Assembly: GCF_030408575.1 (NCBI RefSeq)
Contig: NZ_CP047047.1
Coordinates: forward strand, 620,001 to 684,000
From: Corynebacterium auris
GTDB taxonomy: Bacteria; Actinomycetota; Actinomycetes; Mycobacteriales; Mycobacteriaceae
Length of the DNA: 64,000 nt
Direction: 5' to 3'
The notes below the pieces were generated by a model. That model searched no databases. It was given only the letters and a program-made list of their open reading frames with translations, and was not told where the DNA came from. Below, in pieces: positions 18,843 to 63,305 of this stretch. The position numbers were made by a program, and so were the translations under genes. Positions within the stretch are counted from its first letter, which is position 1. Each line of letters begins with the position of its first letter.

Positions 18843-20651
<1,809 letters not shown>

Positions 20652-20654
20652 TCA

Positions 20655-20749: not shown

Positions 20750-20756
20750 TCATAGG

Positions 20757-24159: not shown

Positions 24160-24958
24160 GCCCGCCAAGCCTAGCCGCAATGTCCTCGACGATCTGGCGG
24201 TTGCCCGCGACGCACCAGGTCACCCCGCCGGCGTCGACCTTGATCGCAGCCCCTCCCGCCGCCTCGACCAGGGCCTTGCCGGGCAGCCAGTCCCAGTCCG
24301 CGACGCTGTGCTGCAGCCACGCGCCGAGCTGGCCGGAGGCGATGTTGGCCAGGTCAACCGAGCCGGCGCCGAGCATGCGCACCGTGGCCGCATCCCGCGC
24401 GGCGCGCAGCCACGTTTCGCGGATGGCGTCGTCGCGCATGGAGGTGGGGTGGAGGTAGGTGGCCAGGCCCTTTTCCTGCAGCGGTGCCTCCGGGAGCGGG
24501 GCGAGCGGTTCGCCATTGCGGGTGGCGGTGCCGTCTGCGGCGACCCAGGTGGTGTCCGTCGCCGGGCGGTGCACCGCGGAGAGCAAAATATCGTCGTCGC
24601 GGGTCAGCGCGACAGCGGAGCAGAAGTAGTCCGAGCCCTGGAGGAAGTTGAAGGTCCCGTCCACCGGGTCGATCACCCACACCCGCCCGCTCCGCGAGTC
24701 CCGTGAGGCACCTTCCTCTCCGAGGATGCCATCCTCCGGCCGCAGCGCGGCGAGCGCTTCGGCGACGAACTCCTCGGCGGCGCGGTCGGCGTCGCTGACC
24801 ACGTCAGAGACGGAGGTTTTGTAGTCGGTCTCAAGACCCGCCGCGCGCATGCGCAGCGCGAGCGAGCCCGCGTGCGTGACCAGCGCGGCGGCGAGCTCTG
24901 CATCGGTGGAGGAGGAGTGGGCGCGGATGAACTCTCGGGAGGTTGGCATGATTCCCAT
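24152..24958 (-). CDS. Inositol monophosphatase family protein
   Basis: The protein of about 268 residues has [23 protein letters not shown] and [16 protein letters not shown], the three metal and substrate motifs. It is paralogous to hisN and forms a two-gene operon with it. Candidate substrates are inositol phosphates or sulfur-pathway nucleotides. Start is ATG 24958 (GGAG eight bases upstream) or ATG 24949. It diverges from prfB. Confidence 0.83.
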
Positions 24959-24972
24959 TATGGGTGCTCCGC

Positions 24973-24978
24973 TACAGT
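24973..24978 (+). promoter_or_regulatory. Predicted -10 element of prfB (leaderless transcript)
   Basis: TACAGT fits the TANANT consensus and ends eight bases before the prfB ATG. There is no ribosome binding site before the ATG, so transcription probably starts at or next to the start codon. Confidence 0.45.
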
Positions 24979-24986
24979 GGGGCCTT

Positions 24987-26087
24987 ATGCATCCCGAGAC
25001 TTCTTCGCGCATTCAGGACCTCGATTCGACGTTGACGACGATTGAGAAGGTCATGGATCTTGACGCCCTCGGGGCGCGGGCGCGCGAGCTGGAGCAGCAG
25101 GCGGGGGATCCTTCCCTGTGGGACGACCCGGATCACGCGCAGAAAGTCACCACCGAGCTATCCAACGTCCAGGCCCGCCTGCGTAAGGTCACCTCCCTGC
25201 GCTCCCGGCTCGACGATCTCCCCGTCATGTACGAGCTCGCCGAGGAAGAAGGGGAGGCATCGCTTGCCGACGACGAACTCGCCGCCCTGGAAGAAGCGGT
25301 CTCCTCCCTGGAGGTCCAGACCATGCTCTCCGGCGAGTACGACGAGCGCGAGGCGGTGGTGAACATCCGCTCCGGCGCGGGCGGCGTCGACGCGGCCGAC
25401 TGGGCTGAGATGCTCATGCGCATGTACGTGCGCTGGGCGGAAAAGAACGATCACAAGGTAGATGTGTACGACATCTCCTACGCGGAGGAGGCGGGCATCA
25501 AGTCCGCTACCTTCGTCGTCCATGGCGATTACATGTACGGCCAGCTCTCGGTGGAGCAGGGCGCGCACCGCCTGGTGCGCATTTCTCCCTTCGACAACCA
25601 GGGCCGCCGCCAAACCTCCTTCGCCGAGGTGGAGGTGCTGCCGGTGGTGGAGCAGACGGACCACATCGACATCCCAGATTCGGACATCCGCGTCGACGTC
25701 TACCGCTCCTCGGGCCCCGGCGGGCAGTCGGTGAACACCACCGACTCCGCCGTGCGCATCACTCACCTGCCCACCGGGATCGTGGTGACCTGCCAGAACG
25801 AGAAGTCGCAGATTCAAAACAAGGCCTCGGCGCTCAACGTGCTGCAGTCGAAGCTCCTGGAGCGCAAGCGCCAGGAGGAAAAGGCCGAGCTCGACGCCCT
25901 GGGCGCGGGCGGCAACGCCTCCTGGGGCAACCAGATGCGCTCCTACGTTTTGCACCCGTACCAAATGGTCAAGGACCTGCGGACGAACTACGAGGTGGGG
26001 GACCCGCAGAAGGTGCTCGACGGCGACATCGACGGCTTTTTGGAGTCCGGCATCCGCTGGCGTATGGCGGAGCAGCAGGAGAGCTAG
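24987..26087 (+). CDS. prfB: Peptide chain release factor 2 (RF2)
   Basis: The 366-residue protein has the SPF anticodon-like tripeptide (in [10 protein letters not shown]) that reads UGA/UAA, and the GGQ loop ([15 protein letters not shown]) that triggers peptide release. The frame is continuous from the start, so the programmed +1 frameshift found in many bacteria is absent. ATG 24987 gives the usual N-terminus ([20 protein letters not shown]). No ribosome binding site is seen, consistent with a leaderless mRNA. Confidence 0.97.
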
Positions 26088-26144: not shown

Positions 26145-27473
26145 TTAGGCGTCACGCAGGTCGATGCCCTTCGTCTCCGGCAGGATCTTCATGCTGACGA
26201 GGGTGAGAACGCACAGCACCACGACGTAGGTGCCGGAAATGTGCGTCAGGTCATGGGTGGTAAACCACTGGAAGATGTACGGGGCGGTACCGCCGAAGAC
26301 AGCGACCGACAGCGAGTACGCGAAACCGATGCTGCTGGTGCGCTGTGAAGTGGGGAAGACTTCGGCCATCACCGGGGCAAGTAGCGCTCCGCCGGCCGCG
26401 ACCGCGATGACGGCGGCGGTGGCGGAAACAAGCAACGTCCATGGCTGCGCGTCGATGAACCCCATCAGCGGGATTTGCAGGACGCCGACTGCGATGGCGA
26501 AGGTGTACATCACCGGTTTACGGCCGATGCGGTCGGACAGCGCGCCCCACAGGGGCAGGGCGATCAGACCGCAGGTCTGCGCGAAGACCGAGACCCAGTA
26601 GGCTCCCTGGGTGGACATGCCCTCGTGGGTGATGGCGTAGGTGGAGATGTAGGAGGTCCACGTGTAGTGGGCTGAGGTGACCCCGGAAACCATGCCGATG
26701 ACCAGCAGGATGTTCACCCAGTTCGGGCGCTGCGGTGTCTTGGGGCGGGCTGCAGCGAGGTTGTCGTAGGAGTCAACGCCTCCTTCTTGGAGCTCCGCGA
26801 AGTGCTCGGATTCCTGCATATGGCGGCGCAGGTAGAGGGCAACGAGCGCCGCTGCTGCGCCCAGCCAGAACGGGATACGCCAGCCCCAAGCGCCGATTTG
26901 GTCGTCGCTAAGCACGAGCGTGATCACGCCGCCGAGCGTGTAGGCGATGACGGAGCCGCCGAAAATGGACATGTAGACCATCGATCCCCACATGCCGCGC
27001 CGGTTTTTTGGGGCGATCTCCGGGATGTAGCTGTTTGCGGTGGCGGACTCGCCCCCGTGGGCAAAGCCCTGCACCACTCGGGCGAAGAGCAGGACGACAG
27101 AGGCCCAGATGCCGATCTGCCCGTAGGTCGGCATGACGCCGATGAGCACTGCAGACAGCGCCATGATGACAATGGTGCTCAGGAGCACGTTCTTACGGCC
27201 CACCCGGTCGGCGATGCGCCCGAAGACGATGCCGCCCAGCGGGCGGACGAGGAAGCCGATAGCAAAGACCCCGAATGTGGAAAGTAGGGCCGAGGTGGGG
27301 TCCGTTTTGTCGAAGAAAGCTGCGGCAATGAATGGGGCGAAGACCGCGTAGGAGCTCCATTCGAACCACTCGAGCAGCTGGCCGATGAGGCTGGCGCCGA
27401 GGGACTTCTTGTCGGCGGGGCGTTCTGCCTCGATGTGTGTGGTGCCCATGTCGAAGCGCTGTGTGACGCTCAT
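26145..27473 (-). CDS. MFS transporter, metabolite:H+ symporter (MHS) type
   Basis: The 442-residue protein has 12 helices and the motif FGRIADRVGRKNVL between TM2 and TM3; FARVVQGFAHGGESA in TM4 and the GMWGSMV loop are typical of the MHS group (alpha-ketoglutarate, citrate and shikimate permeases). It is a likely organic-acid importer. AGGAGG precedes the ATG. It diverges from the split biotin carboxylase operon across a 372-bp region with a palindromic operator, which suggests a shared inducer and that the imported acid feeds the cluster. Confidence 0.88.
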   Translation of the reverse strand: MSVTQRFDMGTTHIEAERPADKKSLGASLIGQLLEWFEWSSYAVFAPFIAAAFFDKTDPTSALLSTFGVFAIGFLVRPLGGIVFGRIADRVGRKNVLLSTIVIMALSAVLIGVMPTYGQIGIWASVVLLFARVVQGFAHGGESATANSYIPEIAPKNRRGMWGSMVYMSIFGGSVIAYTLGGVITLVLSDDQIGAWGWRIPFWLGAAAALVALYLRRHMQESEHFAELQEGGVDSYDNLAAARPKTPQRPNWVNILLVIGMVSGVTSAHYTWTSYISTYAITHEGMSTQGAYWVSVFAQTCGLIALPLWGALSDRIGRKPVMYTFAIAVGVLQIPLMGFIDAQPWTLLVSATAAVIAVAAGGALLAPVMAEVFPTSQRTSSIGFAYSLSVAVFGGTAPYIFQWFTTHDLTHISGTYVVVLCVLTLVSMKILPETKGIDLRDA

Positions 27474-27845: not shown

Positions 27846-29408
27846 ATGGCTGCACTCAGTCCGGAAGAACTGAGCACGGAAAGCCTCGCTGAAATTTTTG
27901 CCGCGGGTGGTCGACCCGCCGACAGCGAGCGCGAAATCAAGATCATCGACACCACGTTGCGCGATGCCCACCAGTCCATCTGGGCGACGCGCATGCGCAC
28001 CGAACACATCCTCGAACTGCTTGACGACGTCACAAACGCTGGCTTCGAACACGTGGACCTGGTTGCTCCGATCCAGTTCGACGTGCCGGTGCGCTACCTC
28101 CGGGAAGACCCGTGGGAGCGCGTGCGCCTCGTTCACGAGAAAGCGGCGCCGGGAACGAAGTTTCGCGCGATGGTGCGCTCCCGCAACCTCGCATCCTTCG
28201 ACTTCCTGCCGGACGACGTCATCCACACGTGGGTTGAACGCCTTTACGCCCACGGCTTCCGCGTCATCGGCGCCTTCGACGGGCTCAACGACATCGACAA
28301 CATCGCGGACACCCTGATCCTGGCGAAGGAGCTTGGGGCCGAGACCTACGGCTGTTTGTCCTACTGCTTGAGCCCGGTACACACCGACCAGCTCTATATC
28401 GATAAAGCACAGGAGCTGGTGGAGCGCACGGATGTAGACCGCATCATGCTCAAGGACGCCGGCGGGCTGCTCACCCCGGACCGCATGAAGACGCTGATTC
28501 CGGCTATCCGCGGGGCGGTTGGGGATGAGCTGCCGCTGGAAATCCACACCCACTCACTGACCGGCCTGTCCCCGCTGACCTACATCTACGCGGCCGAGCT
28601 CGGGGCGGATTCGATCCACACCTCCATCGCCCCACTGGCAAATGGCCAGGGGCAGCCGGCGACGCAGGCACTCGCGCGCGACCTCCGCGCTCTCGGGTAC
28701 ACCGTCAACATTGACGACGAGCGCGTGGACAGCGCCAGCAAGAAGCTTGAGGCGATCGCGGAGCGCGAGGGCAAGCCTGTGGGAAAGCCCCGCGCTTTTG
28801 ACGGCGTCCACTACATGCACCAGCTCCCGGGTGGGATGCTCACCAACTTCGAGTCCCAGCTGGCTACCGCCGGCCTGTCCGACAGGTTCGAGGACCTGCT
28901 CTATGAGACCGCCCGCGTCCGGCAGGAGCTGGCATATCCGATCATGATCACACCCTTCGCCCAGTTCGTGGGGACCCAGGCTGTGATGAACGTGATTTCC
29001 GGCGAGCGCTACTCGGTGGTGCCCAATGAGATCAAGAAGTATGCGCTCGGCTACTACGGCGAACCGCTCGCCCCGCTCGACCCAGAGGCGTTGGAAAAGA
29101 TCAAGGCCAACGGGTCGTCCGAAATTAAAGAGGGCCGACCCGACCTCGAACCGGCCCTGCCGGGCCTGAAAGAGCAGTATCCGGACGACGACATCGATAC
29201 GTTGCTGCTGCGCGCCAATATCCCGGGAAACAACGTGGATGAGATGCGGCGCTTTGTTGCCGAAGGCCGAGCTGGCCAGGGCGAAGGCGCGCCGGGCGGC
29301 GCGCTGACCAAGCTGGTGCAGCAGATCTACGACACCGCCACCACAGGCGTGTTCCGCCTCAAGACCAACGACCTCGAAATCAACCTCACCAAAAAAGGAG
29401 AGCAGTAA
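27846..29408 (+). CDS. Biotin-dependent carboxyltransferase subunit (pyruvate carboxylase B / transcarboxylase 5S type)
   Basis: The 520-residue protein has a TIM-barrel (HMGL-like) domain with DTTLRDAHQS (metal and substrate Asp), the metal ligands in EIHTHSLTG, the lysine in MLKDAGG expected to be carbamylated, and a C-terminal PYC/OADA-type domain (GGMLTNFESQL, QFVGTQAVMNV). It has no biotin attachment site of its own, so it works with the two following genes. Substrates of this enzyme class are 2-oxo acids such as pyruvate, oxaloacetate or 2-oxoglutarate. AAGGAGG precedes ATG 27846. Sodium-pump subunits are absent. Confidence 0.88.
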   Translation: MAALSPEELSTESLAEIFAAGGRPADSEREIKIIDTTLRDAHQSIWATRMRTEHILELLDDVTNAGFEHVDLVAPIQFDVPVRYLREDPWERVRLVHEKAAPGTKFRAMVRSRNLASFDFLPDDVIHTWVERLYAHGFRVIGAFDGLNDIDNIADTLILAKELGAETYGCLSYCLSPVHTDQLYIDKAQELVERTDVDRIMLKDAGGLLTPDRMKTLIPAIRGAVGDELPLEIHTHSLTGLSPLTYIYAAELGADSIHTSIAPLANGQGQPATQALARDLRALGYTVNIDDERVDSASKKLEAIAEREGKPVGKPRAFDGVHYMHQLPGGMLTNFESQLATAGLSDRFEDLLYETARVRQELAYPIMITPFAQFVGTQAVMNVISGERYSVVPNEIKKYALGYYGEPLAPLDPEALEKIKANGSSEIKEGRPDLEPALPGLKEQYPDDDIDTLLLRANIPGNNVDEMRRFVAEGRAGQGEGAPGGALTKLVQQIYDTATTGVFRLKTNDLEINLTKKGEQ

Positions 29409-29410: not shown

Positions 29411-29923
29411 GTGTCGCACCCCACCAACTTCAATGAACTGAAATCCCTCCTCGAGTGGGTTAAGCAATCCGGTGACCTCGAAGAGCTGAGCATCAAGTAC
29501 GGCGATATCGAGCTGGCGATGTCCAAAACCCCGGGCGGGCTGAGCCGCCGCGCGGCTGCTCCGGCGGCGCCCGCTGCTCCCGCCCCGGACGCTCCCCGGG
29601 CTGAGCCTCCCGCCCCAACTCCCGCCCCAGCTACGCAGGAGGAGGCGCCCGCACGGCAGGCTCCCGCCGCGCCCACCGGCAGCGGTGTTGCGGTCACGGC
29701 GCCGATGGTGGGCACCTTCTACGCCGCTCCGAAGCCGGGCGCTGACCCGTTTGTAAAGGTCGGCGACGCCGTGGAGGTCGGGCAGGTGCTCTGCATCGTC
29801 GAGGTGATGAAGCTGATGAACAACATCGAGGCCAAAACCGCCGGAACCGTGACGGACATCCTCGTGGCCAACGAGGAAGCAGTCGAGCACGGCCAGACGC
29901 TCATGGTCATCGAGCCGAAGTAG
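29411..29923 (+). CDS. Biotin carboxyl carrier protein (AccB-like)
   Basis: The 170-residue protein has an N-terminal AccB-like helix domain, a Pro/Ala-rich linker (residues about 52-90) and a C-terminal biotinyl domain with EVMKLMN, whose Lys is biotinylated. GTG at 29411 starts two bases after the preceding stop, with GGAG inside that gene's end. With the neighbours it forms a three-subunit enzyme. Confidence 0.9.
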   Translation: MSHPTNFNELKSLLEWVKQSGDLEELSIKYGDIELAMSKTPGGLSRRAAAPAAPAAPAPDAPRAEPPAPTPAPATQEEAPARQAPAAPTGSGVAVTAPMVGTFYAAPKPGADPFVKVGDAVEVGQVLCIVEVMKLMNNIEAKTAGTVTDILVANEEAVEHGQTLMVIEPK

Positions 29924-29930: not shown

Positions 29931-31298
29931 ATGGCGGATTCTGAAAAACTGCTGGACAGCGTGCTCATCGCCAACCGCGGGGAGATCGCGCTGCGCGTTA
30001 TCCGAGCCTGCAAGGAGCTCGGCATCAAGAGCATCCTCGCGTACTCGGAGGGAGACCGGGACTCGCTGCCGGTGAGGGAGGCGGACAAGGCGGTGTGCGT
30101 CGGCCCGGCGAACGCGGCAAAAAGCTACAACAGCCCCGAGATGATCGTCTCGGCGGCGCTGGCGTTCAAGGCTGCCGCCATCCACCCCGGCTATGGTTTC
30201 CTTTCTGAGAAGGCCGACTTCGTCAAAATGGTCGAGGAAGAAAACATCGGCTTCGTCGGCCCATCGTCGGAGCACATCCGGCGTATGGGTGACAAGATTG
30301 AGGCGAAGAAAATCGCCCAGGCTGCCGGAGTACCCACCGTGCCGGGCTCAGACGGGGTAGTCACCGAGTTTGCCGAGGCCCTCGCCGTGGCCAAAGAAAC
30401 TGGCTTCCCCCTCTTGATCAAGGCCGCAGCCGGCGGCGGTGGCCGCGGTATGCGCGTGGTGGAAGCGGAAGAGACGCTGGAAAAGGACCTCAACGAGATC
30501 ATGAACGAGGCGCAATCGGCGTTTAACGACTCCTCGGTCTACATCGAGCGCTACCTCACCGATATTCGCCACATTGAGATCCAGGTGCTCGCGGACGGCG
30601 AAAATGCTATTGCACTCGGCGAGCGCGACTGTACGTCCCAGCGACGCAACCAGAAGCTCATCGAGGAGGCGCCCTCGCCCGCAATCGACGATGAGCTCCG
30701 GGCGGGCCTCCAGCAGGCCGCGATCAATCTGTGCAAGGAGGTGGGGTACACCAACGCCGGTACCGTCGAGTTTGTCTTCGATAACATCGAGCGCAAGTAC
30801 TACTTCATCGAAATGAACACACGCATCCAGGTGGAGCACCCCGTGACGGAGATGATCACCGGCGTGGACCTGATCCAAGAGCAGCTGCGGATCGCCTCCG
30901 GGCAGAAGCTCAGGCTCACCCAGGACGACATCGGGATTCGCGGTCACGCGATCGAATGCCGCATCAATGCCGAGGACCCGAACGAAAACTTTGCCCCGCG
31001 CCCCGGCACCATCACCCACTACCGCGCCCCGGGCGGGTTCGGCGTGCGGATGGACACGCACATCGAGACGGGATACACCATTCCGCCCTTCTACGACTCG
31101 ATGGTGGGCAAGCTAATCTGCTGGGCGGAGACGCGAGAGGATGCGATAGCGCGCACCCTGCGCGCCCTGGGCGAGCTCACAGTCGAGGGCGTCGTCACCA
31201 CCGCACCGTTCCAGGCTCAGCTGATCGGCAGCGAGCAGTTTCGCAGCGGGGAGTTCAATACCGGCTACGTGGGCAAGATGCTGGAGAAGAAAGGCTAG
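29931..31298 (+). CDS. Biotin carboxylase subunit (AccC-like)
   Basis: The 455-residue protein has the three-domain ATP-grasp fold: N-terminal LIANRGEIALRVIRA, glycine-rich AAAGGGGRGMR for ATP binding, EMNTRIQVEHPVTE for metal and bicarbonate, and a C-terminal domain ending in the segment around GYVGKMLEKK. It carboxylates biotin on the carrier protein. Starts seven bases after the carrier gene. The monofunctional biotin carboxylase lacks the fused carrier of corynebacterial AccBC acyl-CoA carboxylase chains. Confidence 0.93.
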   Translation: MADSEKLLDSVLIANRGEIALRVIRACKELGIKSILAYSEGDRDSLPVREADKAVCVGPANAAKSYNSPEMIVSAALAFKAAAIHPGYGFLSEKADFVKMVEEENIGFVGPSSEHIRRMGDKIEAKKIAQAAGVPTVPGSDGVVTEFAEALAVAKETGFPLLIKAAAGGGGRGMRVVEAEETLEKDLNEIMNEAQSAFNDSSVYIERYLTDIRHIEIQVLADGENAIALGERDCTSQRRNQKLIEEAPSPAIDDELRAGLQQAAINLCKEVGYTNAGTVEFVFDNIERKYYFIEMNTRIQVEHPVTEMITGVDLIQEQLRIASGQKLRLTQDDIGIRGHAIECRINAEDPNENFAPRPGTITHYRAPGGFGVRMDTHIETGYTIPPFYDSMVGKLICWAETREDAIARTLRALGELTVEGVVTTAPFQAQLIGSEQFRSGEFNTGYVGKMLEKKG

Positions 31299-31314: not shown

Positions 31315-32448
31315 TCATCCGCGCACGTTCTTCCACCTTTCCAGGGTGAGTGCCGGGGAATGGGAGCGGGAGACGCACGTGGCAAAGGCCCCGTTTTCGT
31401 GCTGCTCCTCCGTGAAGATGCTGTCGCGGTGGTCCGGGGTCCCGGCGATCACGCGCATGACACAGGTTCCGCAGGTTCCTTCGGCGCACTGCGACATGAT
31501 CGGGACGCCCTCGTCCTCGAGCACGTCGAGGACGGACGTGCCCGCCGGCACGGTGTAGCTCTCCCCGTTGAGACTCACCTCGAAGGGGCCATCCGCGTGG
31601 TGGTTGCCCGCCAGTGTCTCCTGGGTAGCGCGAAAAGCCTCTACGTGGATGTTGGCTCGGGGGACGAAGGAAGCCGCAGCCTCGATAACGCCGTCCATGA
31701 ATCCCTGCGGCCCGCACACGTAAAGATGAGTGCTCTCGGGCGCAACGCTAGATGCGTCGAGCACTTCCGCGATGTAGGCGGACTGCTTCTCGCGTTCACC
31801 AGAGGCGAAGATGCTGCGAGTCTGCCCGTGAAGGTAGGTGTCGATGAGATGGCGCATCAGAGCCCGTTCACGGCTGGACGCGAAGTAGAGGACCGCGTAG
31901 TCGGCCCGCTGGATCTGTAGTTCGCGGGCCAGTGAAAAGATGGGGGCAATTCCCACCCCGGCGCCCACGAGGACCGAGCGCTGAGCGCCCGTCGCCAAGC
32001 GGAAATTGCTTCGTGGCGGGAGGATGCGAACGGTGTCCCCCGGCTGGATTCTGTGCGCGGCGAGGGAGCCGCCGCGTGAATCGCGCTCGAGTGTCACCTC
32101 GATGCCGTACTGCGCGGGAGTCTGCCCCTCCGAGCCGAGGTGGTGCATGGGGAAAAGCGAGTATTGGCGGACAATCTCTACGCCATCGGGCGACCGCAGG
32201 AAAAAGTCGGCATGGCAGCCGGGCTCGTAGCCGGGGAGGGGAGAGCCGTCATCGGTTTCGAACGTGATGAGCACTACGCCGTGGGCGCGCTCGACATGGG
32301 TGGCTACGAGCTCGATATGAGCGCCACTGGGGCTGCGCCCTTGCCTGGCCTGCAAAGCTGCCTGGCGGTCGGCGGCGTTCGGGTCGGACCGGTCCCGAGT
32401 GGCCCGCAACAAGGACGAAAAACGCCCGATTCCTGCGCCGTGCCTCAT
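31315..32448 (-). CDS. PDR/VanB-type flavin and 2Fe-2S oxidoreductase
   Basis: The 377-residue protein has an FMN-binding domain (RQYSLFPMHH near the flavin), an NAD domain (GAGVGIAPIFSLAREL, YVCGPQGFMDGV) and a C-terminal plant-type ferredoxin domain with CAEGTCGTC plus a later Cys in FATCVSR. ATG 32448 has GGAGGG upstream. It would pass electrons from NAD(P)H to a terminal oxygenase. It is divergent from the two Lcp/MpaB-like oxygenase genes, so they are its likely partners, though no Rieske oxygenase is seen. Confidence 0.88.
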   Translation of the reverse strand: MRHGAGIGRFSSLLRATRDRSDPNAADRQAALQARQGRSPSGAHIELVATHVERAHGVVLITFETDDGSPLPGYEPGCHADFFLRSPDGVEIVRQYSLFPMHHLGSEGQTPAQYGIEVTLERDSRGGSLAAHRIQPGDTVRILPPRSNFRLATGAQRSVLVGAGVGIAPIFSLARELQIQRADYAVLYFASSRERALMRHLIDTYLHGQTRSIFASGEREKQSAYIAEVLDASSVAPESTHLYVCGPQGFMDGVIEAAASFVPRANIHVEAFRATQETLAGNHHADGPFEVSLNGESYTVPAGTSVLDVLEDEGVPIMSQCAEGTCGTCVMRVIAGTPDHRDSIFTEEQHENGAFATCVSRSHSPALTLERWKNVRG

Positions 32449-32672
32449 GTGCCCTCCAGTGCGGAATGTTCGTGGCAATTGACCAGCGGAAGTGCTTGCC
32501 AAGACTATATGTAAGGGATACCATAACTCCACGGAAAAGTGATCTGCTACACAGCAGGGTTGATTCTGGCTCTGGGTAACAACAGCCGCTTTCCGTCCAT
32601 CACATACTTCGCAGGCGGCGGCTGCGCACTGGGCCGGCGCCGGAAACGGGCCTTTCCCGAGGAAGGAAAAAT

Positions 32673-34049
32673 ATGACTGCCAGCACGGGTGTCTGGGACG
32701 GTCATTATCGTCTGCAGCAGAATCCGGAGATCCTTCCGATGTCGGATAACCCTTACGGGGATTTCCGCTACTTCTACCGCGATGGCATGCCGCTGCGCCC
32801 AGCTCCGAAACGTCGGACGCGCAAACCGGGGTGGGCTATTTTGCGCCGCAACCTCTTCGAAAAGTGGCACGCCGTCGCCTCTGAGTGGGAAGACTTCACA
32901 AGCTTTCAAGCAAAGCTTCTCGACGACCACATGTGGCAGACCGATGAGACCGGCTGGAAGCTTGCCGAGGCGTTCCGCCGAGACGGCGCAGCGAAGTCCC
33001 GCGCGGACTTCGAAAAGGCGCTGAACGAGGGGATCGACACCGTCGACGACCCCTCGCCTGAGCTCGTAGCCTTTTTCGCAGAGGTGGACAACATCCCGGA
33101 CTGGATCGACCTGGAGGCCGCGGAGCGCGGACGCGTCGCCTACTACAACGTCACCCCGTCGGCGGAGCTGCTCTCCATTGCCTTTGCCTTCTGGGCCACG
33201 ACGATGGAGGACCGCACCTCGGCGGCGACGGGTGAGACGGGAATGTTTGAGATCGAGTCCTTCACCCGCATCATCGAGACGGTGAAGTTCTTCGTCGACC
33301 TGGGCCGGGACGGCGTGTTCCACCGCTACAGCGACGGGCTGAAGGCGGCCGTGCGCGTGCGGCTTCTGCACGCGCAGGCCAACCGCGGCTTGGAAAAACT
33401 CTGGGGGCCCGAACACTACAACGAGTTCGGTCGGCCGATCGGGTCGTCTTTCCTTGTCTCGGGCGAGGGCTGGTTTGCCCTCATGCCCATCGGCGTGGAT
33501 GAGTTCTTTGGTCGGCCCCACAGTGGGCAGGAGTGGGACGACGTCGCGATGTACTGGGCTTGGGTGCTCTACCTCATGGGGGCGGAGGAGCGCCTCATCC
33601 CGAAAACGGGTGATGAGATGCGCAAGATGACCGACTTTATCTACGCCAACGGCGGGTATTCCTCCGAGTACCACGTGCGCGTCGCTACCGCTTTGATGGG
33701 CATTCTCGAGGACTTGGATCCGAAGATGCCTGGGCAGGTGCTTGGCGCGCTGTCGCTGATCATTGGCGATGAGGACACGAAGTTCATGGTGAAGGGCTCC
33801 CGCTTTGAGGGGACTAAGTATCTGCACTGGAAGGTGCCGTTCTTGCTGAAAGCGAAGGCGGAGGCCGCCCTCTACCGGCTGCGGGATGCCCTGCCGGGCG
33901 CGTGGGCGGCGAAGGTAGCGAAGGCCGCCGACGGCAAGCCGCCGTGGTCAGACGTGTTCAAACAGATCGAGGATTACGTCGCGGAAAAGGCCCCGCACGT
34001 AAAGGCCGAATACACCCTGCACGACACCTCGAAGGAAGGCCTGCGTTAG
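32673..34049 (+). CDS. Lcp/MpaB-like (DUF2236) heme oxygenase 1
   Basis: The 458-residue protein belongs to the family of rubber oxygenase Lcp and fungal MpaB. R199-x3-T203-x29-H233 (in SFTRIIET and RVRLLHAQ) has the same spacing as the heme-pocket residues R164, T168 and H198 I recall for Lcp of Streptomyces strain K30. No signal peptide is seen, so it is cytoplasmic and unlikely to cleave extracellular rubber. AGGAAGG precedes the ATG. It pairs with the next gene (35 bases), and the reductase is divergent. Substrate unknown. Confidence 0.8.
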   Translation: MTASTGVWDGHYRLQQNPEILPMSDNPYGDFRYFYRDGMPLRPAPKRRTRKPGWAILRRNLFEKWHAVASEWEDFTSFQAKLLDDHMWQTDETGWKLAEAFRRDGAAKSRADFEKALNEGIDTVDDPSPELVAFFAEVDNIPDWIDLEAAERGRVAYYNVTPSAELLSIAFAFWATTMEDRTSAATGETGMFEIESFTRIIETVKFFVDLGRDGVFHRYSDGLKAAVRVRLLHAQANRGLEKLWGPEHYNEFGRPIGSSFLVSGEGWFALMPIGVDEFFGRPHSGQEWDDVAMYWAWVLYLMGAEERLIPKTGDEMRKMTDFIYANGGYSSEYHVRVATALMGILEDLDPKMPGQVLGALSLIIGDEDTKFMVKGSRFEGTKYLHWKVPFLLKAKAEAALYRLRDALPGAWAAKVAKAADGKPPWSDVFKQIEDYVAEKAPHVKAEYTLHDTSKEGLR

Positions 34050-34084
34050 CGCGCGGCGAGGACTCTACGGAAAAGAGGAAAACT

Positions 34085-35317
34085 ATGACTGCGACACAGA
34101 CATACACCGAACAGCCGCTGGCGCGGGACCACTACAACCGCGCGGACTGGCCAGCAGCTCGCGGTAGCCGCGAAGACTTCGTGGCGCGGTTCGGCGAGAC
34201 GCGCGCTCGGCGGTTTGAGCAGGCGTTCTGGGCGATGGACCCCGTTGCGGACGCGCTATACACTAGCGGCAACAAGAGCAGGATTATCATGCCGAACCTG
34301 CGCGAGGCGCTGGCGCGGGGGGAGGCGGGCGAGGACACCCTGCCCGAAGTAAAGGCGCTTATCGACGACATGAATGCCGCCCTCGACGGGGTCGACTGGG
34401 AGCGCCTTGAGCGGGGGCAGAGGGCCGCGCTGGCAATCCCGGTTCTGGCGCAGAACCTCTCACTGGGGCCTGGGGCGCTGCTGCATACCTACTCCACGCC
34501 GCCGATCGCGAACATCCTCGTCAACACCGGCGAGCTGACCGAGGGGGCGGTACAGCGCCTCGCCTACACCACCAACTGGATCTACTCGGTGTATCTGAAG
34601 GACGGGTTGAAACCAGGCAGCGTGAGCTACATACATACCGGCATGGTCCGCGCCATGCACGCCCATGTGCGCCGCGTGCAAACGCAGCTCGGGCTAGACC
34701 ATTCCGACTGGGGTGCGCCGATCAGTGAGCTAGACATGCTCCGCACGTGGTTCGACTTCACCTACATCGCCTTTACATACCTGCGCAATCTCGGTTACAG
34801 GCTGACCCTGGAGGAGGAGCAGGACCTGTTCTACCTCTGGAAGATTGTGGGCCTCATGCTGGGAATCCCGGGCGACATCCTGGAGCCGGAGACTGATATC
34901 GACGCCTCCCAGGAAACCATCGACGCGATCCACTTCGTGGGCGGCGATCCGAACGACGCCTCGCGAGCCCTCGTGCAGGCGCTGTTCAACGGGTTCCGCG
35001 TCAACGTCCAGTCCCTGTTGCCTTTCTCTGACGAGGCCGTCGAGGACTGGATGTACGCGGCCACCCGCATCATGCACGGGGATGCCGTAGCCGACGTGTT
35101 CGACGTCCCGCACGCCGCCTCGCGGCCGTTCACCGAGCTGGAGCTGCCTCTCGTGCAGCAGCGCTTCGACCTGTTGCGCGCCAACCCGCAGGCGCTGGGG
35201 GAGGAAGTGCAGAGAAATCACCAAGCATTGCTCGACGCGTTGACCCACGACACTCCCTACATGGGGCAAGACGAGGGCATAAAAATGAGTGATGGGTCAT
35301 ATCGGACCGCATCTTGA
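34085..35317 (+). CDS. Lcp/MpaB-like (DUF2236) heme oxygenase 2
   Basis: The 410-residue protein shares the family core with the preceding gene but is widely diverged: R158-x3-T162-x29-H192 (in QRLAYTTN and RAMHAHVRR) reproduces the same heme-pocket spacing. The segment FDFTYIAFTYLRNLGY is the hydrophobic helix after the core. AAGAGGAAAAC precedes ATG 34085, giving 35 bases between genes. No signal peptide. Two paralogues side by side may form a heteromer or act on successive intermediates. Confidence 0.78.
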   Translation: MTATQTYTEQPLARDHYNRADWPAARGSREDFVARFGETRARRFEQAFWAMDPVADALYTSGNKSRIIMPNLREALARGEAGEDTLPEVKALIDDMNAALDGVDWERLERGQRAALAIPVLAQNLSLGPGALLHTYSTPPIANILVNTGELTEGAVQRLAYTTNWIYSVYLKDGLKPGSVSYIHTGMVRAMHAHVRRVQTQLGLDHSDWGAPISELDMLRTWFDFTYIAFTYLRNLGYRLTLEEEQDLFYLWKIVGLMLGIPGDILEPETDIDASQETIDAIHFVGGDPNDASRALVQALFNGFRVNVQSLLPFSDEAVEDWMYAATRIMHGDAVADVFDVPHAASRPFTELELPLVQQRFDLLRANPQALGEEVQRNHQALLDALTHDTPYMGQDEGIKMSDGSYRTAS

Positions 35318-35363
35318 GTTATAGTTCACATCCAAGACCACTTTCCCTACCGAAAGGAAACCA

Positions 35364-36737
35364 ATGTCCCACAAGTACCGCGTCCAAAACCCGGTGAACA
35401 ACGAGGTCCTCGAGACCTTCGAGACCGCGACCGACGAGCAGATCCAAGACATCCTGAACCGCTCCGAGAAGGCGTTCGAGACGTGGCGCCGGACCTCCTA
35501 CGAGGAGCGCGCGCAGATCGTCAGCAAGGCGGCGCAGCTTCTCAAGGAGCGCGCGAATGAGCTGGCGGAGATCGCGGCCAAGGAGATGGGCAAGCCCGTC
35601 CCTGAGGGCGCGTGGGAGATGGAGTTCTCCGGCGACATCCTGCAGTTCTACGCGGACCACGCCGCGGAGCACTCCGCCGACAAGAAGGTGGACATCCCCG
35701 GGGGTAAGGCCGTCGTCCGCCGCCTGCCGCTGGGCACGCTTCTGGGCATCATGCCGTGGAACTACCCGATCTACCAGATCGCGCGTTTCGCGGGCCCGAA
35801 CCTCATGAACGGTAACTGCATCATCCTCAAGCACGCGGATATCACGCCGAAGTCCGCCGCAGCCTTCGAGCAGCTGCTGAAGGACGCCGGCCTGCCGGAC
35901 GGCGTGTACATCAACGTCTACGCCACGCACGACCAGATTTCGACGATCATCGCGCACCCGAGCGTCCAGGGAGTGTCCCTCACCGGCTCCGAGCGCGCCG
36001 GGCAGAAGATCGCGGAGATCGCGGGCCGGAACCTGAAGAAGGTCGTCCTCGAGCTCGGCGGCACGGACCCGTACATCATCCTCGACGCCGCAGACGTCAA
36101 GGCTGCGGCCCAGGACGCGTGGGACAAGCGCGTTTCCAACGCCGGCCAGGCGTGCACCTCCAACAAGCGCATCATTGTCATGGAGGACATCTACGATCAG
36201 TTCGTCGATGAGATGGTTGCCATCGCCCAGAGCTACACCAAGGGTGACCCCAGCACCCCGGGCGCGGGCGAGTACTTCCCGATGTCCTCGCGCCACGCGG
36301 CCGAGGGGCTCCACGAGCAGGTGCAGCGCGCGGTGGGCGCGGGGGCGAACCTGCGCACCGGCGGCGAGATCGACGACTCGACGGCGTACTTCTCCCCGGC
36401 GGTCCTCACCGACGTGCCGGTGGGCAGCGAGTCCTACTACGAGGAGTTCTTCGGCCCCGTCGCCGAGATCTACAAGGTCTCCTCGGAGGAGGAAGCCGTC
36501 TCGCTGGCGAACGATTCCCTGTACGGCCTCGGCGGCGCCGTGTTCTCGGAGGACACTGACCGCGCGGTCAAGGTCGCGGACCAGATCGAGACCGGCATGA
36601 TCCACGTGAACCTCGGCCAGGCCTTCTCGCCGGTGCTGCCCTTCGGTGGCGTGAAGCGCTCCGGCTTCGGCCGTGAGCTGTCGGTGTTTGCTCTCGACGA
36701 GTTCGTGAACAAGCAGTACCTCTACGTCAACGACTAG
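35364..36737 (+). CDS. NAD(P)-dependent aldehyde dehydrogenase (semialdehyde dehydrogenase type)
   Basis: The 457-residue protein has the ALDH residues N133 in PWNYP, E230 in VLELGG and catalytic C264 in NAGQACTSNKR. Length and pattern fit the short mycobacterial/corynebacterial GabD-type succinate-semialdehyde dehydrogenases. Its start lies 46 bases after the second oxygenase, with AAAGGAAACC upstream, so it could be in the same operon. It would oxidise an aldehyde made by the oxygenases. Followed by a strong terminator. Confidence 0.9.
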   Translation: MSHKYRVQNPVNNEVLETFETATDEQIQDILNRSEKAFETWRRTSYEERAQIVSKAAQLLKERANELAEIAAKEMGKPVPEGAWEMEFSGDILQFYADHAAEHSADKKVDIPGGKAVVRRLPLGTLLGIMPWNYPIYQIARFAGPNLMNGNCIILKHADITPKSAAAFEQLLKDAGLPDGVYINVYATHDQISTIIAHPSVQGVSLTGSERAGQKIAEIAGRNLKKVVLELGGTDPYIILDAADVKAAAQDAWDKRVSNAGQACTSNKRIIVMEDIYDQFVDEMVAIAQSYTKGDPSTPGAGEYFPMSSRHAAEGLHEQVQRAVGAGANLRTGGEIDDSTAYFSPAVLTDVPVGSESYYEEFFGPVAEIYKVSSEEEAVSLANDSLYGLGGAVFSEDTDRAVKVADQIETGMIHVNLGQAFSPVLPFGGVKRSGFGRELSVFALDEFVNKQYLYVND

Positions 36738-40024: not shown

Positions 40025-40060
40025 AAGCAGCCCCAGGCCAGCAATGGCCTGGGGCTGCTT
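40025..40060 (+). terminator. Terminator after tmRNA
   Basis: AGCAGCCCCAGGCCA / TGGCCTGGGGCTGCTT gives a 15-bp perfect stem with a four-base loop, ending in TTCT. Confidence 0.85.
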
Positions 40061-40124
40061 CTATTTGGGCCGGCCGGGGGAGACTTCGAAAAGCGTTGGC
40101 CCCGGTTGCTCGTATCCTGGCCCT

Positions 40125-41114
40125 ATGGTTGAGACGAACCCGCTTTTTACGCTGTCGGACCTTTCGCACACGCAGCTGCCCGGCTTCGCCCGGACGTTCC
40201 GGCGCGGCGAGCTGACGGTGGGGCTGACGCTGCCGATCGAGGCCGGTGCGGAGGCGGACCCGCTCGACGGCCTGGAAAACCAGGTGCGGCTGGTGCGCAA
40301 GGCGGAACAGGCGGGCTTTGCGGCTGTGTGGGTGCGCGACATCCCGTTGCGGGTGGAGACCTTCGGCGACGTCGGCCAGGTGTGGGACCCGTGGATGTAC
40401 CTGTCGTACCTAGCGGCGCGCACGCGCGAGATCGCTCTGGGGACGGCGGCGATCGTGGTGCCCTTCCAGCATCCGCTCTTGCTGGCGAAGAGGGCCGCGA
40501 CGCTCGACCGCCTCTCCGCTGGGCGCTTCCTCATGGGGGTCGCCACCGGCGACCGGCCCGAGGAGTTCCCGGCGTTCGGGCAGGACCGGGGGACCAGGGG
40601 CGACGTGCTCGCGGAGCACCTGCGCGTTTACACCGAGGCGCTGACCACCAGCTGGACGCCGCTGCGCTGGTCGGGCGGGAAGATGGGAGGCGCGGATGTG
40701 GTGCCGAAGCCCCTGGCGCGCGAGGTGCCGCTTTTGGCAACGGGTTCGCTCCAGCAGTCGATGCGCTGGCGCGCCGAGAATACGCACGGCTGGCTGATGT
40801 ACCACAAAGGCCTTGAGGTGCAGAAGGTGAACGTGCGCAACTGGAACGAGGCGGTGGTCGAGGCCGGCGGGCAGTGGAAGCCCTTCGCGGAATCGCTGTG
40901 GGTGGACCTCCACCCGGACCCCGACGCGCCGGCGGAGGGGCACACCTTCGGGTACCGGCTGGGGCGCAACGCGCTGCGGCGGCTGCTCGAGGCGCAGCGC
41001 GAGATCGGCATGAGCCACGTGATGGTCAACTTCCGGGCGTCCGCGCGTGACGCGGAGGAGCAGATCGAGGAGTTCGCCGAGCACGTCCTGCCGGCCTTTA
41101 CCCCCGCACGTTGA
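40125..41114 (+). CDS. Luciferase-like monooxygenase (LLM class) oxidoreductase
   Basis: The 329-residue protein has the TIM-barrel pattern of flavin- or F420-dependent LLM proteins: RKAEQAGFAAVWVRDIPL, AARTREIALGTAAIVVPF, KRAATLDRLSAGRFLMGVATGDRPEEF and a SHVMVNFR end. The ATG at 40125 has no ribosome binding site; TATCCT at 40113-40118 may be the -10 element of a leaderless mRNA. Substrate unknown. Confidence 0.88.
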   Translation: MVETNPLFTLSDLSHTQLPGFARTFRRGELTVGLTLPIEAGAEADPLDGLENQVRLVRKAEQAGFAAVWVRDIPLRVETFGDVGQVWDPWMYLSYLAARTREIALGTAAIVVPFQHPLLLAKRAATLDRLSAGRFLMGVATGDRPEEFPAFGQDRGTRGDVLAEHLRVYTEALTTSWTPLRWSGGKMGGADVVPKPLAREVPLLATGSLQQSMRWRAENTHGWLMYHKGLEVQKVNVRNWNEAVVEAGGQWKPFAESLWVDLHPDPDAPAEGHTFGYRLGRNALRRLLEAQREIGMSHVMVNFRASARDAEEQIEEFAEHVLPAFTPAR

Positions 41115-41158
41115 TTTTAGAAACACTCGTGTACTGTAAATACGTATCCCGCCGGCGG

Positions 41159-41177
41159 TAAGGTTTGGCTTAGCTAT
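41159..41177. promoter_or_regulatory. DtxR-type iron box overlapping the promoter of the siderophore operon
   Basis: TAAGGTTTGGCTTAGCTAT matches the DtxR consensus TTAGGTTAGGCTAACCTAA at 14 of 19 positions. It covers the -35 hexamer (TTGGCT, 41165-41170), whose -10 partner TAAGTT is at 41188-41193 with a 17-base spacer. Repression by iron-loaded DtxR is expected. Confidence 0.75.
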
Positions 41178-41241
41178 GGCGGGGCTGTAAGTTTTGCTGG
41201 GTAGTTACTACTCACCTGTACGAAAAGAAGGAGTACGATCC

Positions 41242-42261
41242 ATGTCTCGTTTCCCTAAGCGCATGGCGCTGCTGGCGGTTGCCGTCGCAACCTCGCTCGG
41301 CCTGGCCAGCTGCGCCGACGATGGTGCGCAGCAGCAGGCGGAGCCGACCACGTCGAGCGCCGAGGAGCAGGGCGCCGAAGCCCAGGGCACCGTCACCGTC
41401 GAAGACAACACCGGCACCAAGGAGGTGCCCAGCCCGCCGGAGCGCGTCGTCGCCCTGGATAACCGCTCCTTCGAGATCCTCGACAACTGGGGCATCCAGC
41501 CCGTCGCTGCCGCGCGCGCCATCGTGCCCACCACGATCCCGGGCATCGGCGACGACGAGGACATCGTCGACATCGGCAACCACCGCGAGCCGAACCTGGA
41601 GGCCATCGTGGCCGCCGACCCGGACGTCGTGGTCTCCGGCCAGCGCTTCCAGCAGCACAACGAGGAGATCGAGCGCCTCGTCCCCGAGACCGCGGTGATC
41701 GACTTCGAGCCGCGCGACGGCGAGCCCTTCGACGCCGAGCTCATCCGCCACGCCCAGGCCCTCGGCGAGGTCTTCGACAAGCAGGAGGAGGCCCAGAAGC
41801 TTGTCGACGACTTCAATGCCGCCATCGAACGAGCCAAGGACGCCTACAACCCCGAGCAGACCGTCATGGCCCTGAACGTCTCCGGCGGCGAGATCGGCTA
41901 CGTCGCCCCGACCGTCGGCCGCACCTGGGGGCCGATCTTCGACCTGCTCGGCCTGACGCCGGCCCTCGAGGTCGAAAACGCCACCGACGATCACCAGGGT
42001 GATGACATCTCCGTGGAGACCATCGCCCAGTCCAACCCGGACTGGCTGCTCATCCTCGACCGCGACGCCGGCACCCGGACGGACGAGGGCTCCCCGGCGG
42101 CCCTGCAGGTCATCTCGGATTCCGCTCCGCTGCAGAACGTGACCGCCGTGCAGGATGGCCAGATCTACGTGGCCCCGAACGACACCTACACCAACGAGTC
42201 GATCATCACCTACACTGAGATCCTCAACGCACTGGCTGAGGCTTTCGAATCCGCTAACTAA
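41242..42261 (+). CDS. Iron-siderophore ABC substrate-binding lipoprotein
   Basis: The 339-residue lipoprotein has a signal peptide and lipobox LASC with Cys24. The FecB/FhuD-type fold shows in VEDNTGTKEVPSPPERVVAL and the domain-linking helix. GAAGGAG precedes the ATG. Its stop overlaps the permease start (TAATG), and the operon is under the DtxR box. Confidence 0.92.
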   Translation: MSRFPKRMALLAVAVATSLGLASCADDGAQQQAEPTTSSAEEQGAEAQGTVTVEDNTGTKEVPSPPERVVALDNRSFEILDNWGIQPVAAARAIVPTTIPGIGDDEDIVDIGNHREPNLEAIVAADPDVVVSGQRFQQHNEEIERLVPETAVIDFEPRDGEPFDAELIRHAQALGEVFDKQEEAQKLVDDFNAAIERAKDAYNPEQTVMALNVSGGEIGYVAPTVGRTWGPIFDLLGLTPALEVENATDDHQGDDISVETIAQSNPDWLLILDRDAGTRTDEGSPAALQVISDSAPLQNVTAVQDGQIYVAPNDTYTNESIITYTEILNALAEAFESAN

Positions 42262-43226
42262 TGTCACGCACGACCACCACCGACACCCGCTGGAAGCTTC
42301 CAGCGGGTGTTGCCGCTGTTGTCGCCCTGCTCGCCGTCTCCCTGTTCGTGGGCCAGTACGACATCTGGCGTAACGCCGACGGCTGGGAGATGTTCCAGGC
42401 CACGCGCGTCCCGCGCACCATTGCGCTCGTGCTCGCGGGCGCCGCGATGGCGATGAGCGGGCTGATCATGCAGATGCTCACCCAGAACCGCTTTGTCGAG
42501 CCGACGACCACCGGCACGACCGAGTGGGCCGGGCTGGGCCTGTTGACCACCCTGATCCTGCTGCCCGGGGCATCGATCCTCACGCGCATGATCGTGGCCG
42601 TCGCCTTCGCGTTCGTGGGCACGATGGTGTTCTTCGCGTTTTTGCGCCGGGTGAAGCTGCGCTCCTCGCTCATCGTGCCCATCGTGGGCATCATGCTCGG
42701 GGCCGTGGTCAGCTCGGTGTCCACGTTCTTCGCGCTGCAGACGAACCTGCTGCAGTCGCTCGGCGTGTGGTTCGCCGGCTCGTTCACCAGCGTGATCACC
42801 GGGCAGTACGAGGTGCTGTGGATCGTGCTCATCGTGGTGGTGGCCGTGTTCTTCTACGCCGACAAGCTCACCGTCGCCGGGCTGGGGGAGGACGTGGCCA
42901 CCAACGTGGGGCTGAACTACAACCGCGTGGTGCTCGTGGGTACGGGCCTTGTCGCCGTGGCCACCGGCGTGGTCACGGTCGTGGTGGGCAACCTGCCCTT
43001 CCTCGGGCTCATCGTGCCCAACCTCATCTCGATGGCGCGTGGCGACGACCTGCGTTCCAACCTGCCGTGGGTGTGCCTGCTCGGTATCGCCATCGTGACG
43101 GTGTGTGACCTGCTCGGAAGGACAATCATCGCCCCCTTCGAGATGCCGGTTTCGGTGATCCTCGGGGTCGTCGGTGCTGTCGTGTTCGTCGTCTTGATTG
43201 TGAGGAAGACGCGTCGTGGGAAGTAG
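42261..43226 (+). CDS. Iron-siderophore ABC permease 1 (FecCD family)
   Basis: The 321-residue protein has nine to ten membrane helices with the family segment RVPRTIALVLAGAAMAMSG and the loop GNLPFLGLIVPNLISM, where the ATPase couples. It overlaps the neighbours at both ends, consistent with a polycistron. Confidence 0.93.
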   Translation: MSRTTTTDTRWKLPAGVAAVVALLAVSLFVGQYDIWRNADGWEMFQATRVPRTIALVLAGAAMAMSGLIMQMLTQNRFVEPTTTGTTEWAGLGLLTTLILLPGASILTRMIVAVAFAFVGTMVFFAFLRRVKLRSSLIVPIVGIMLGAVVSSVSTFFALQTNLLQSLGVWFAGSFTSVITGQYEVLWIVLIVVVAVFFYADKLTVAGLGEDVATNVGLNYNRVVLVGTGLVAVATGVVTVVVGNLPFLGLIVPNLISMARGDDLRSNLPWVCLLGIAIVTVCDLLGRTIIAPFEMPVSVILGVVGAVVFVVLIVRKTRRGK

Positions 43227-44229: not shown

Positions 44230-44981
44230 TTACGCTTACCGACGTCCGCAAGGACTACGGCGACGACGTCGCCATCGGGCCGGTCAACCTGCAGATCCCC
44301 GCCGGGGGCATCACGGCCCTGGTCGGGCCGAACGGCGCGGGGAAATCGACGCTGCTCACGATGATCGGGCGCCTGCTCGCCGTCGACTCCGGCACCGTGG
44401 AGATCGCCCAGATGGACGTGACGTCCACCAAGTCGAAAGACCTGGCCAAGATCATCTCGATCCTGCGGCAGGAAAACCACTTCGTCACCCGCCTGACGGT
44501 GCGCCAGCTCGTCGGCTTCGGCCGCTTCCCCTACACGCAGGGGCGGCTCAACGCCGAAGACGAGCAAATCATCTCGAAATACATCGACTTCCTCGGGCTA
44601 AAGCCGCTGGAGAACCGCTACCTCGACCAGCTCTCCGGCGGTCAGCGCCAGCGCGCCTACGTAGCGATGGTGCTGTGCCAGGAAACCGAGTACGTCCTGC
44701 TCGACGAGCCGCTGAACAACCTGGACATCGCCCACTCCGTGGACATGATGCGCCACCTCTACGACGCGGCGCGTGACCTGGGGCGCACGATCATCATCGT
44801 GCTGCACGACATCAACTACGCCGCGCGCTACGCCGACTACATCTGCGCGGCGAAGGACGGGCAGATCGCCGCCTTTGGCACCCCCGCCGAGATCATGCGC
44901 GACGACCTGCTCACGGAGATCTTCAACACCGAGATCAAAGTGATCGACGGGCCGCACGGCCCCATCGCCGCGTACCACTGA
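44226..44981 (+). CDS. Iron-siderophore ABC ATPase
   Basis: The 251-residue protein has Walker A GPNGAGKST, signature LSGGQRQRAYVAM, Walker B YVLLDEPLNNLD and the switch His in IVLHDINYA. The layout is that of FecE/FepC importers. GTG start overlaps the previous stop (GTGA). It ends the DtxR-controlled operon. Confidence 0.95.
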   Translation: MITLTDVRKDYGDDVAIGPVNLQIPAGGITALVGPNGAGKSTLLTMIGRLLAVDSGTVEIAQMDVTSTKSKDLAKIISILRQENHFVTRLTVRQLVGFGRFPYTQGRLNAEDEQIISKYIDFLGLKPLENRYLDQLSGGQRQRAYVAMVLCQETEYVLLDEPLNNLDIAHSVDMMRHLYDAARDLGRTIIIVLHDINYAARYADYICAAKDGQIAAFGTPAEIMRDDLLTEIFNTEIKVIDGPHGPIAAYH

Positions 44982-45572: not shown

Positions 45573-50515
<4,943 letters not shown>

Positions 50516-50550
50516 CAACCCAAACAAAAAGAACACGACGAACCGTGCAC

Positions 50551-62498: not shown

Positions 62499-63305
<807 letters not shown>

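Follow-up and report, generated by a model that had tools for sequence, protein, structure and literature searches.

In the Corynebacterium auris genome (2.44 Mb, one contig), a 64 kb stretch of contig NZ_CP047047.1 (below, the window) carries eight genes between two that we take, from their sequences, to be prfB (24849-26087) and ftsE (36845). As listed in Table 1, these encode a major facilitator superfamily (MFS) transporter, the three subunits of a biotin-dependent carboxylase (the trio: carboxyltransferase, biotin carboxyl carrier protein (BCCP) and AccC), a reductase resembling phthalate dioxygenase reductase (PDR), two proteins of the DUF2236 family, Mpa1 and Mpa2, which are related to the rubber oxygenase Lcp, and an aldehyde dehydrogenase (ALDH).

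Table 1. Genes of the block, with their positions in the window
Product	Position	Strand	Features
MFS transporter, metabolite/H+ symporter type	26145..27473	-	relatives KgtP, TcuC, ProP, ShiA; probable organic acid importer
Carboxyltransferase subunit, OadA/PycB-like, apparently outside the pyruvate/oxaloacetate group	27846..29408	+	PF02436 and HMGL-like
Biotin carboxyl carrier protein	29411..29923	+	MKLM biotin site; TIGR00531 153 bits, cut-off 115
Biotin carboxylase, AccC type	29931..31298	+	TIGR00514 660 bits, cut-off 626.5
PDR-type reductase	31315..32448	-	flavin/NAD domain, then C-terminal 2Fe-2S; NAD_binding_1 and Fer2; 2pia, E 3e-35
Mpa1, divergent DUF2236/Lcp-like oxygenase	32673..34049	+	R199, T203, H233; Glu202 at the position of Lcp Lys167
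Mpa2, DUF2236/Lcp-like oxygenase	34085..35317	+	R158, T162, H192; Tyr161 at the position of Lcp Lys167
Aldehyde dehydrogenase, closest to succinate-semialdehyde dehydrogenases	35364..36737	+	PF00171, 438 bits

The transporter scored 356 bits against TIGR00883, under the cut-off of 443, and is therefore called family-like only. For the ALDH, the NCBIfam cut-off was reached by none of the 25 models listed. An alternative GTG start at 27774 is possible for the carboxyltransferase; its relatives start at the Met of position 27846. The Met at 32448 is a more likely start of the reductase than the GTG at 32532. In many relatives a gene for a YdcZ-type membrane protein (e.g. L025:5713-6633) separates accC from the reductase gene; it is absent from the window, where the spacing is 17 bp.

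Conservation and distribution of the block

The distribution of the block was determined in a sample of 201 Corynebacterium genomes. Mpa1 is present in 18 and Mpa2 in 17 of these, once as a 48-residue remnant. The carboxyltransferase, searched for at E <= 1e-100, was found in 17 genomes, which are exactly the Mpa1 genomes minus G087, a genome with an orphan Mpa1 only, and in all 17 it is located 3.3-6.1 kb from Mpa1. Chance co-occurrence would have a probability of ~1e-23 under independence of the genomes, an assumption that does not hold. All 19 named loci encoding a relative of Mpa1 are from Corynebacterium; PDR, Mpa1, ALDH, carboxyltransferase, BCCP and AccC stand together in 18 of them (17 with an intact Mpa2), and the nineteenth (L043) is an orphan Mpa1. 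MFS, BCCP and AccC genes lie beside the carboxyltransferase gene in those loci that reach that far. An initial annotation of the stretch had proposed a cluster of four genes, from the reductase to the ALDH. These four do form a conserved set, but the unit is larger and includes the MFS gene and the carboxylase trio upstream. The carboxyltransferase was found only in Mpa1 genomes, and the larger unit explains more of the chemistry. Five loci (L033, L035, L036, L039 and L040) contain tandem Mpa1 duplicates and hence three DUF2236 genes per block. In G009 (L193) Mpa1, oadA, accC and also ftsE all seem to be split, which looks like sequencing error and not decay.

The site of the block varies: it is prfB-ftsE in the clade of the window and elsewhere in others, in some cases beside a tRNA-Asn or an integrase gene. 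The close relative G067 has prfB, ALDH and ftsE in succession at this site and nothing that corresponds to the window segment of ~26.08-35.28 kb, with the seven genes from MFS to Mpa2. An ALDH of at least 69% identity (a threshold of our own choice; the next matches are at most 65% identical) occurs without Mpa1 in three of the 201 genomes, G067, G031 and G193. The far-side neighbours of the G031 ALDH are the same as those of the ALDH in the L042 block. Between one pair of shared neighbours (L192, L105), G193 has a broken ALDH and G087 its orphan Mpa1, which suggests that Mpa1 and ALDH were once together at this site and that the two genes are remnants of one ancestral set. The ALDH, which had been put forward as a pathway member, is confirmed as an aldehyde dehydrogenase by PF00171, but its persistence without the oxygenases makes it the loosest member of the block.

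Outside Corynebacterium, 249 genomes drawn from Mycobacteriales were searched, and plasmids in addition. In other Mycobacteriales 97 stretches flanking DUF2236 matches were read (the oxygenase gene was recovered in 94, not in L091, L125 and L186). An ALDH was found near the DUF2236 gene in two (L094 and L103; gene calls and tblastn agree), and three had a pair of long DUF2236 genes no more than 3 kb apart (adjacent in L094, with one gene between in L133 and L137). With such low counts neither the ALDH link nor the pairing is general for DUF2236, and a general DUF2236-ALDH association was rejected. No PDR-type reductase was located within three genes of DUF2236 in any of the 97 stretches. Full-length Mpa1-like and Mpa2-like proteins do exist in other Mycobacteriales; only L094 approaches the layout of the block. 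Three consecutive genes on one strand there (L094:5908-10101, G429) encode a DUF2236 protein, an Mpa1-like protein and a distinct type of ALDH, and this twin-plus-ALDH set was possibly assembled separately. In L133:3793-7214 and L137:3799-7213 the two DUF2236 genes are on the same strand, ~0.7 kb apart.

The plasmid search yielded 9 Mpa1 and 18 Mpa2 records, none covering 80% of the query. On a Pseudonocardia plasmid (L200:7956-14851) an Mpa2-like gene (34%) is surrounded by three P450 genes, and a PDR/VanB reductase and an aromatic-acid MFS gene are ~3-5 kb away. In L095:6207-8851 an Mpa1-like gene stands between a lycopene-cyclase-like gene, 45 bp upstream, and an alpha/beta hydrolase gene that follows it. 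A carotenoid link was considered and rejected: the other neighbours scanned were not carotenoid genes, and SQS_PSY (PF00494) was found in all 36 Corynebacterium genomes searched, of which 18 lack Mpa1.

The twin oxygenases and the reductase

The two tandem DUF2236 reading frames were found at the coordinates given by the initial annotation, and its assignment of the two residue triads (Table 1) proved exact to the residue. In profile alignments to the crystal sequence the triads fall, as had been supposed, on R164/T168/H198 of LcpK30 (numbering from excerpts of PMC6311187), the profile match of Mpa1 being weak (E 0.2-0.3); His198 is described, in the excerpted Lcp literature, as the strictly conserved heme ligand. 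The triad is invariant in alignments of relatives (16 Mpa1 rows, 12 Mpa2 rows), and the exact R-x3-T-x29-H spacing occurs in 82 of 98 DUF2236 relatives as against 19 of 301 other genes of the same loci (300-650 aa). A check with the PF09995 profile (curated cut-off 23) gave 61.4 bits for Mpa2, and for Mpa1 22.5 bits by hmmscan, just under the cut-off, and 23.6 in the genome search with neighbours. The score being borderline, family membership of Mpa1 leans on fold and residues over the Pfam score.

The predicted structures of Mpa1 and Mpa2 have the Lcp-like globin fold. Fold and triad are common to both and to LcpK30 (PDB 5o1l/5o1m), at an identity of only 15-16%; unlike LcpK30, the two proteins have no hydrophobic N-terminus and no distal Lys167, and their genes are paired and accompanied by those of a reductase and a carboxylase. 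Lys167 is replaced by Glu202 in 16 of 16 Mpa1 rows and by Tyr161 in 12 of 12 Mpa2 rows, so the chemistry of Lcp is not simply transferable. Hydropathy agreed with the earlier statement that signal peptides are lacking: Mpa1, Mpa2, PDR and ALDH have no hydrophobic N-terminal segment, the highest Kyte-Doolittle 19-residue means in the first 60 residues being -0.69, -0.12, 0.62 and -0.43, respectively. For the same four genes dN/dS is 0.07-0.19.

The third structural match was t-anethole oxygenase (PDB 8s1j). This enzyme and Nro1, C=C-cleaving oxygenases of the MpaB family, are shorter single proteins (302 residues for 8s1j, 323 aa for Nro1), and the excerpts describing them report no separate PDR reductase, unlike the arrangement in the Mpa1/Mpa2 block. 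According to the portions of the literature consulted, Lcp, MpaB, Nro1 and t-anethole oxygenase all cleave C=C bonds to carbonyls, and the MpaB reaction releases acetone from the prenyl end. The t-anethole oxygenase of P. putida requires NADH and flavin, as stated in an excerpt of PMC3774712; this enzyme and 8s1j are linked by their shared name only.

The divergent gene was confirmed as a flavin/2Fe-2S reductase by its NAD_binding_1 and Fer2 domains. Cysteines C320, C325, C328 and C357 of the 2Fe-2S domain are invariant in 10 rows. Structural matches include phthalate dioxygenase reductase (2pia, E 3e-35) and the P450-fusion chains 6laa and 6kbh, which have the same flavin-NAD-2Fe-2S order; what sets the window reductase apart is that it adjoins DUF2236 genes, in a genome without a P450 match. 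Homologues occur in 87 of the 201 Corynebacterium genomes, and the top 16 places by score all belong to Mpa1 genomes, where, in the loci read, the gene adjoins Mpa1. G110, the seventeenth genome with the block, has an intact reductase gene of 369 codons that is divergent in sequence and lies on the opposite strand.

Other partners of the reductase were sought among P450 and Rieske proteins, the two kinds to which this search was limited. No P450 match was obtained in the C. auris genome; six of the 18 Mpa1 genomes carry one. Rieske matches were present in 36 of 36 genomes searched, at least two in 35 of them. The C. auris genome has two, of 42.8 and 38.9 bits, the strongest (56-82 bits) being in G196, G025, G015 and G018, of which G025 and G196 are Mpa1 genomes. 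With only these two low-scoring matches in C. auris, service to a Rieske oxygenase, the alternative named in the initial annotation, is unlikely, and a P450 or Rieske partner was rejected. Probably PDR is the electron donor of the oxygenases, and a dedicated reductase makes sense since t-anethole oxygenase reportedly needs NADH and flavin.

The carboxylase trio and putative genes for 3-oxo acid use

Whereas the BCCP and the biotin carboxylase score over their NCBIfam cut-offs, the carboxyltransferase is under those of PRK09282 (390.7, cut-off 402), TIGR01108 (342.8, cut-off 756.5) and the 5S model (301.6, cut-off 827). Its core residues are kept and two signatures are altered: WGGATFD reads VAPIQFD, and FRxFDALND reads VIGxFDGLND, while WGGAT(F/Y)D was found in seven of seven canonical rows. 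The altered signatures recur in close relatives of 60-63% identity that are encoded on Arthrobacter, Cnuibacter and Caballeronia plasmids. In a 19-row tree, from which the G001 row was left out as not being a carboxyltransferase, a split with 100/100 support separates OadA/5S/Pyc from the window clade together with Hpe-like and Acv-like rows (our labels, given on the basis of phosphoenolpyruvate-utilising/kinase-like, phosphatase/HAD and CoA ligase/thiolase genes nearby); the tree is unrooted and the order among the last three is open. In 26 alignment columns the window clade agrees with both ketone-type groups as opposed to the canonical rows; 12 columns link it to the latter. We infer from these comparisons that the carboxyltransferase lies outside the pyruvate/oxaloacetate group and nearer to the aryl-methyl-ketone carboxylases of the HpeCBA type. 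Ordinary anaplerosis by the trio is disfavoured by a separate 1138-aa PYC_OADA open frame in C. auris and by the changed signature motifs.

By experiment, HpeCBA carboxylates 4-phospho-acetovanillone and 4-phospho-acetophenone to beta-keto acids (PMC9618137, in excerpt); according to the same paper, its production in E. coli did not succeed. The trio resembles HpeCBA, XccBCA and AcvCDE in consisting of separate BCCP, biotin carboxylase and carboxyltransferase subunits, and the carboxyltransferases are on the same side of the tree split; it differs from HpeCBA in its signature motifs, and its ketone is probably another, non-aromatic one. On the Arthrobacter plasmid the same trio lies beside an MFS gene whose product is 65% identical to that of the window. 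On the Cnuibacter plasmid it is followed by BioY, a CoA-transferase pair and a thiolase. On the Caballeronia plasmid a carbonic anhydrase and a biotin-synthesis gene are near it, a hint at carboxylation.

Genes beyond MFS were examined in 15 block genomes, excluding the window genome and one other. Thiolase and 3-oxoacid CoA-transferase subunits A and B adjoin the block in eight, and prfB in the other seven. In six of the eight, those with genes called, a regulator-sized gene of similar sequence stands beside the thiolase. In L204 a PcaR-type regulator, PcaI/ScoA and PcaJ/ScoB score over NCBIfam cut-offs; the thiolase is over the acetyl-CoA C-acetyltransferase model and under the cut-off of PcaF (3-oxoadipyl-CoA thiolase). 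In C. glaucum (L201) a thiolase and a CoA-transferase are encoded at this very prfB site, so the subclade of the window has probably lost them. The neighbour layouts in Corynebacterium and Cnuibacter both fit a 3-oxo acid product.

A possible catabolic island and competing explanations

We consider the locus, with a probability of about 0.4, to be one catabolic island in which a C=C bond is cleaved and both pieces are consumed. From the genes observed, their conservation and co-distribution, and the predicted fold, residues and tree position of their products, we infer the following heme, substrate and reactions. The MFS symporter would import an organic acid. PDR would relay electrons of NAD(P)H, via its flavin and 2Fe-2S centre, to both globin-fold proteins in the cytoplasm, putative heme oxygenases that probably act as a pair and differ in the distal pocket (Glu in Mpa1, Tyr in Mpa2). 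By analogy with Lcp, MpaB, Nro1 and t-anethole oxygenase, these would cleave a C=C bond to an aldehyde and a methyl ketone; a methyl-branched bond of isoprenoid type is the most likely target. The ALDH would oxidise the aldehyde, and the trio, given its likeness to HpeCBA-type carboxylases, would form a 3-oxo acid by carboxylating the methyl ketone, which might be levulinate or acetone. Where they are present, a PcaIJ/ScoAB-type CoA-transferase and the thiolase could turn this acid into CoA esters.

If the substrate contained two isoprene double bonds, the internal piece would be 4-oxopentanal, which the ALDH, similar to succinate-semialdehyde dehydrogenases, might oxidise to levulinate (4-oxopentanoate); carboxylation at the methyl group would then give 3-oxoadipate, the substrate of PcaIJ and the signal of PcaR. 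Conversion of levulinate to 3-oxoadipate appears to fit most of the parts, that of acetone to acetoacetate coming next; the MFS family favours a carboxylate and the thiolase score favours acetoacetate. The complete chain, from reductase-driven cytoplasmic alkene cleavage through levulinate, a new aliphatic ketone carboxylase and 3-oxoadipate to succinyl-CoA and acetyl-CoA, we regard as unlikely in its entirety. The pair of soluble heme oxygenases with ALDH and reductase that the initial annotation had envisaged is partly supported, by triad, fold and the kept gene set; not sustained was a direct transfer of Lcp chemistry, and the carboxylase had been missed. Its remark that it knew of no described pathway with this set agrees with searches of open-licence literature, whose listings showed none and in which a search for 'Corynebacterium' with 'oxygenase MpaB family' gave no match.

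Several observations weigh against a single cleavage pathway. The 17 block genomes are related, so they represent few independent events. In G110 Mpa2 is decayed and Mpa1, reductase and carboxyltransferase are open frames, which means that the oxygenase pair is not essential to the block, and ALDH is present without oxygenases in the three genomes mentioned. Nor does the trio depend on a DUF2236 gene, since on the Arthrobacter, Cnuibacter and Caballeronia plasmids none is listed nearby. The identities of the carboxyltransferase are near equal (40-41% to Hpe-like, 36-39% to Acv-like, 39% to Streptococcus OadA and 34-35% to 5S proteins), and with the root of the tree not fixed its grouping with the ketone side is provisional. 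HpeCBA requires its aromatic ketone to be phosphorylated, and none of the eight genes that separate prfB from ftsE encodes a kinase (HpeHI) or a phosphatase. Seven of the 15 genomes, and the window as well, have no CoA-transferase or thiolase gene at the locus itself, and the levulinate version is weakened by the failure of the L204 thiolase to reach the 3-oxoadipyl-CoA thiolase cut-off. Finally, the excerpt of the t-anethole oxygenase paper (PMC3774712) gives a flavoprotein and contains no mention of heme.

Some of these points are also those expected if two independent modules merely travel together, MFS and trio as a cassette that takes up and carboxylates a keto acid and PDR, Mpa1, Mpa2 and ALDH as a cassette for another substrate, the linkage then reflecting one old acquisition and not one pathway. 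The trio with its 65% identical MFS alone on the Arthrobacter plasmid would agree with this, as would the retention of the trio in G110 despite the decayed Mpa2. Such an arrangement seems doubtful in view of the carboxyltransferase occurring without Mpa1 in none of the 201 genomes, the presence of intact blocks at two or more places in the chromosome, and the loss of the MFS-Mpa2 segment as a single piece from the G067 site.

Two further explanations concern the reaction itself. The DUF2236 pair could be a reductase-fed monooxygenase (hydroxylation, epoxidation or demethylation), the ALDH acting on an aldehyde derived from demethylation or from an alcohol. The resemblance of the reductase to those of P450 and phthalate dioxygenase and the replacement of the distal Lys of Lcp in both proteins would suit this; since the characterised relatives Lcp, MpaB, Nro1 and t-anethole oxygenase, as excerpted, cleave C=C bonds, and the ketone-type carboxylase in the block suits cleavage better, we think it rather unlikely. 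Very unlikely, in our estimate, is a cytoplasmic isoprenoid- or rubber-type oxygenase pair working with the ALDH only, the reductase re-reducing autoxidised heme and the upstream genes being unrelated: the Lcp-like fold with its triad and the conserved four-gene set are compatible with it, but it leaves the linkage to the carboxyltransferase in 17 of 17 genomes unexplained.

DUF2236 proteins are encoded in many of the Mycobacteriales genomes scanned, and a function is known for few. At the C. auris locus two such genes stand with those of a reductase, an ALDH and a ketone-type carboxylase, an arrangement that points to cofactors and to two product classes. If the catabolic island is real, it would add an aliphatic member to the ketone carboxylases, it would mean that heme oxygenases of the C=C-cleaving kind can be driven by a reductase, and it would allow some Corynebacterium species to draw carbon from unsaturated lipids or terpenoids.

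The remainder of the window contains a complete rRNA operon (small subunit, large subunit and 5S) near the block at 45574-50759, a thiamine pyrophosphate riboswitch at 20640-20753 and a cyclic di-AMP (ydaO) riboswitch at 63136-63275, both riboswitches on the minus strand. At 40044-44981 a TIGR03571-type LLM oxidoreductase gene, scoring over the cut-off, is followed by a gene resembling those of solute-binding proteins and by further open reading frames, which presumably belong to a siderophore ABC transporter.

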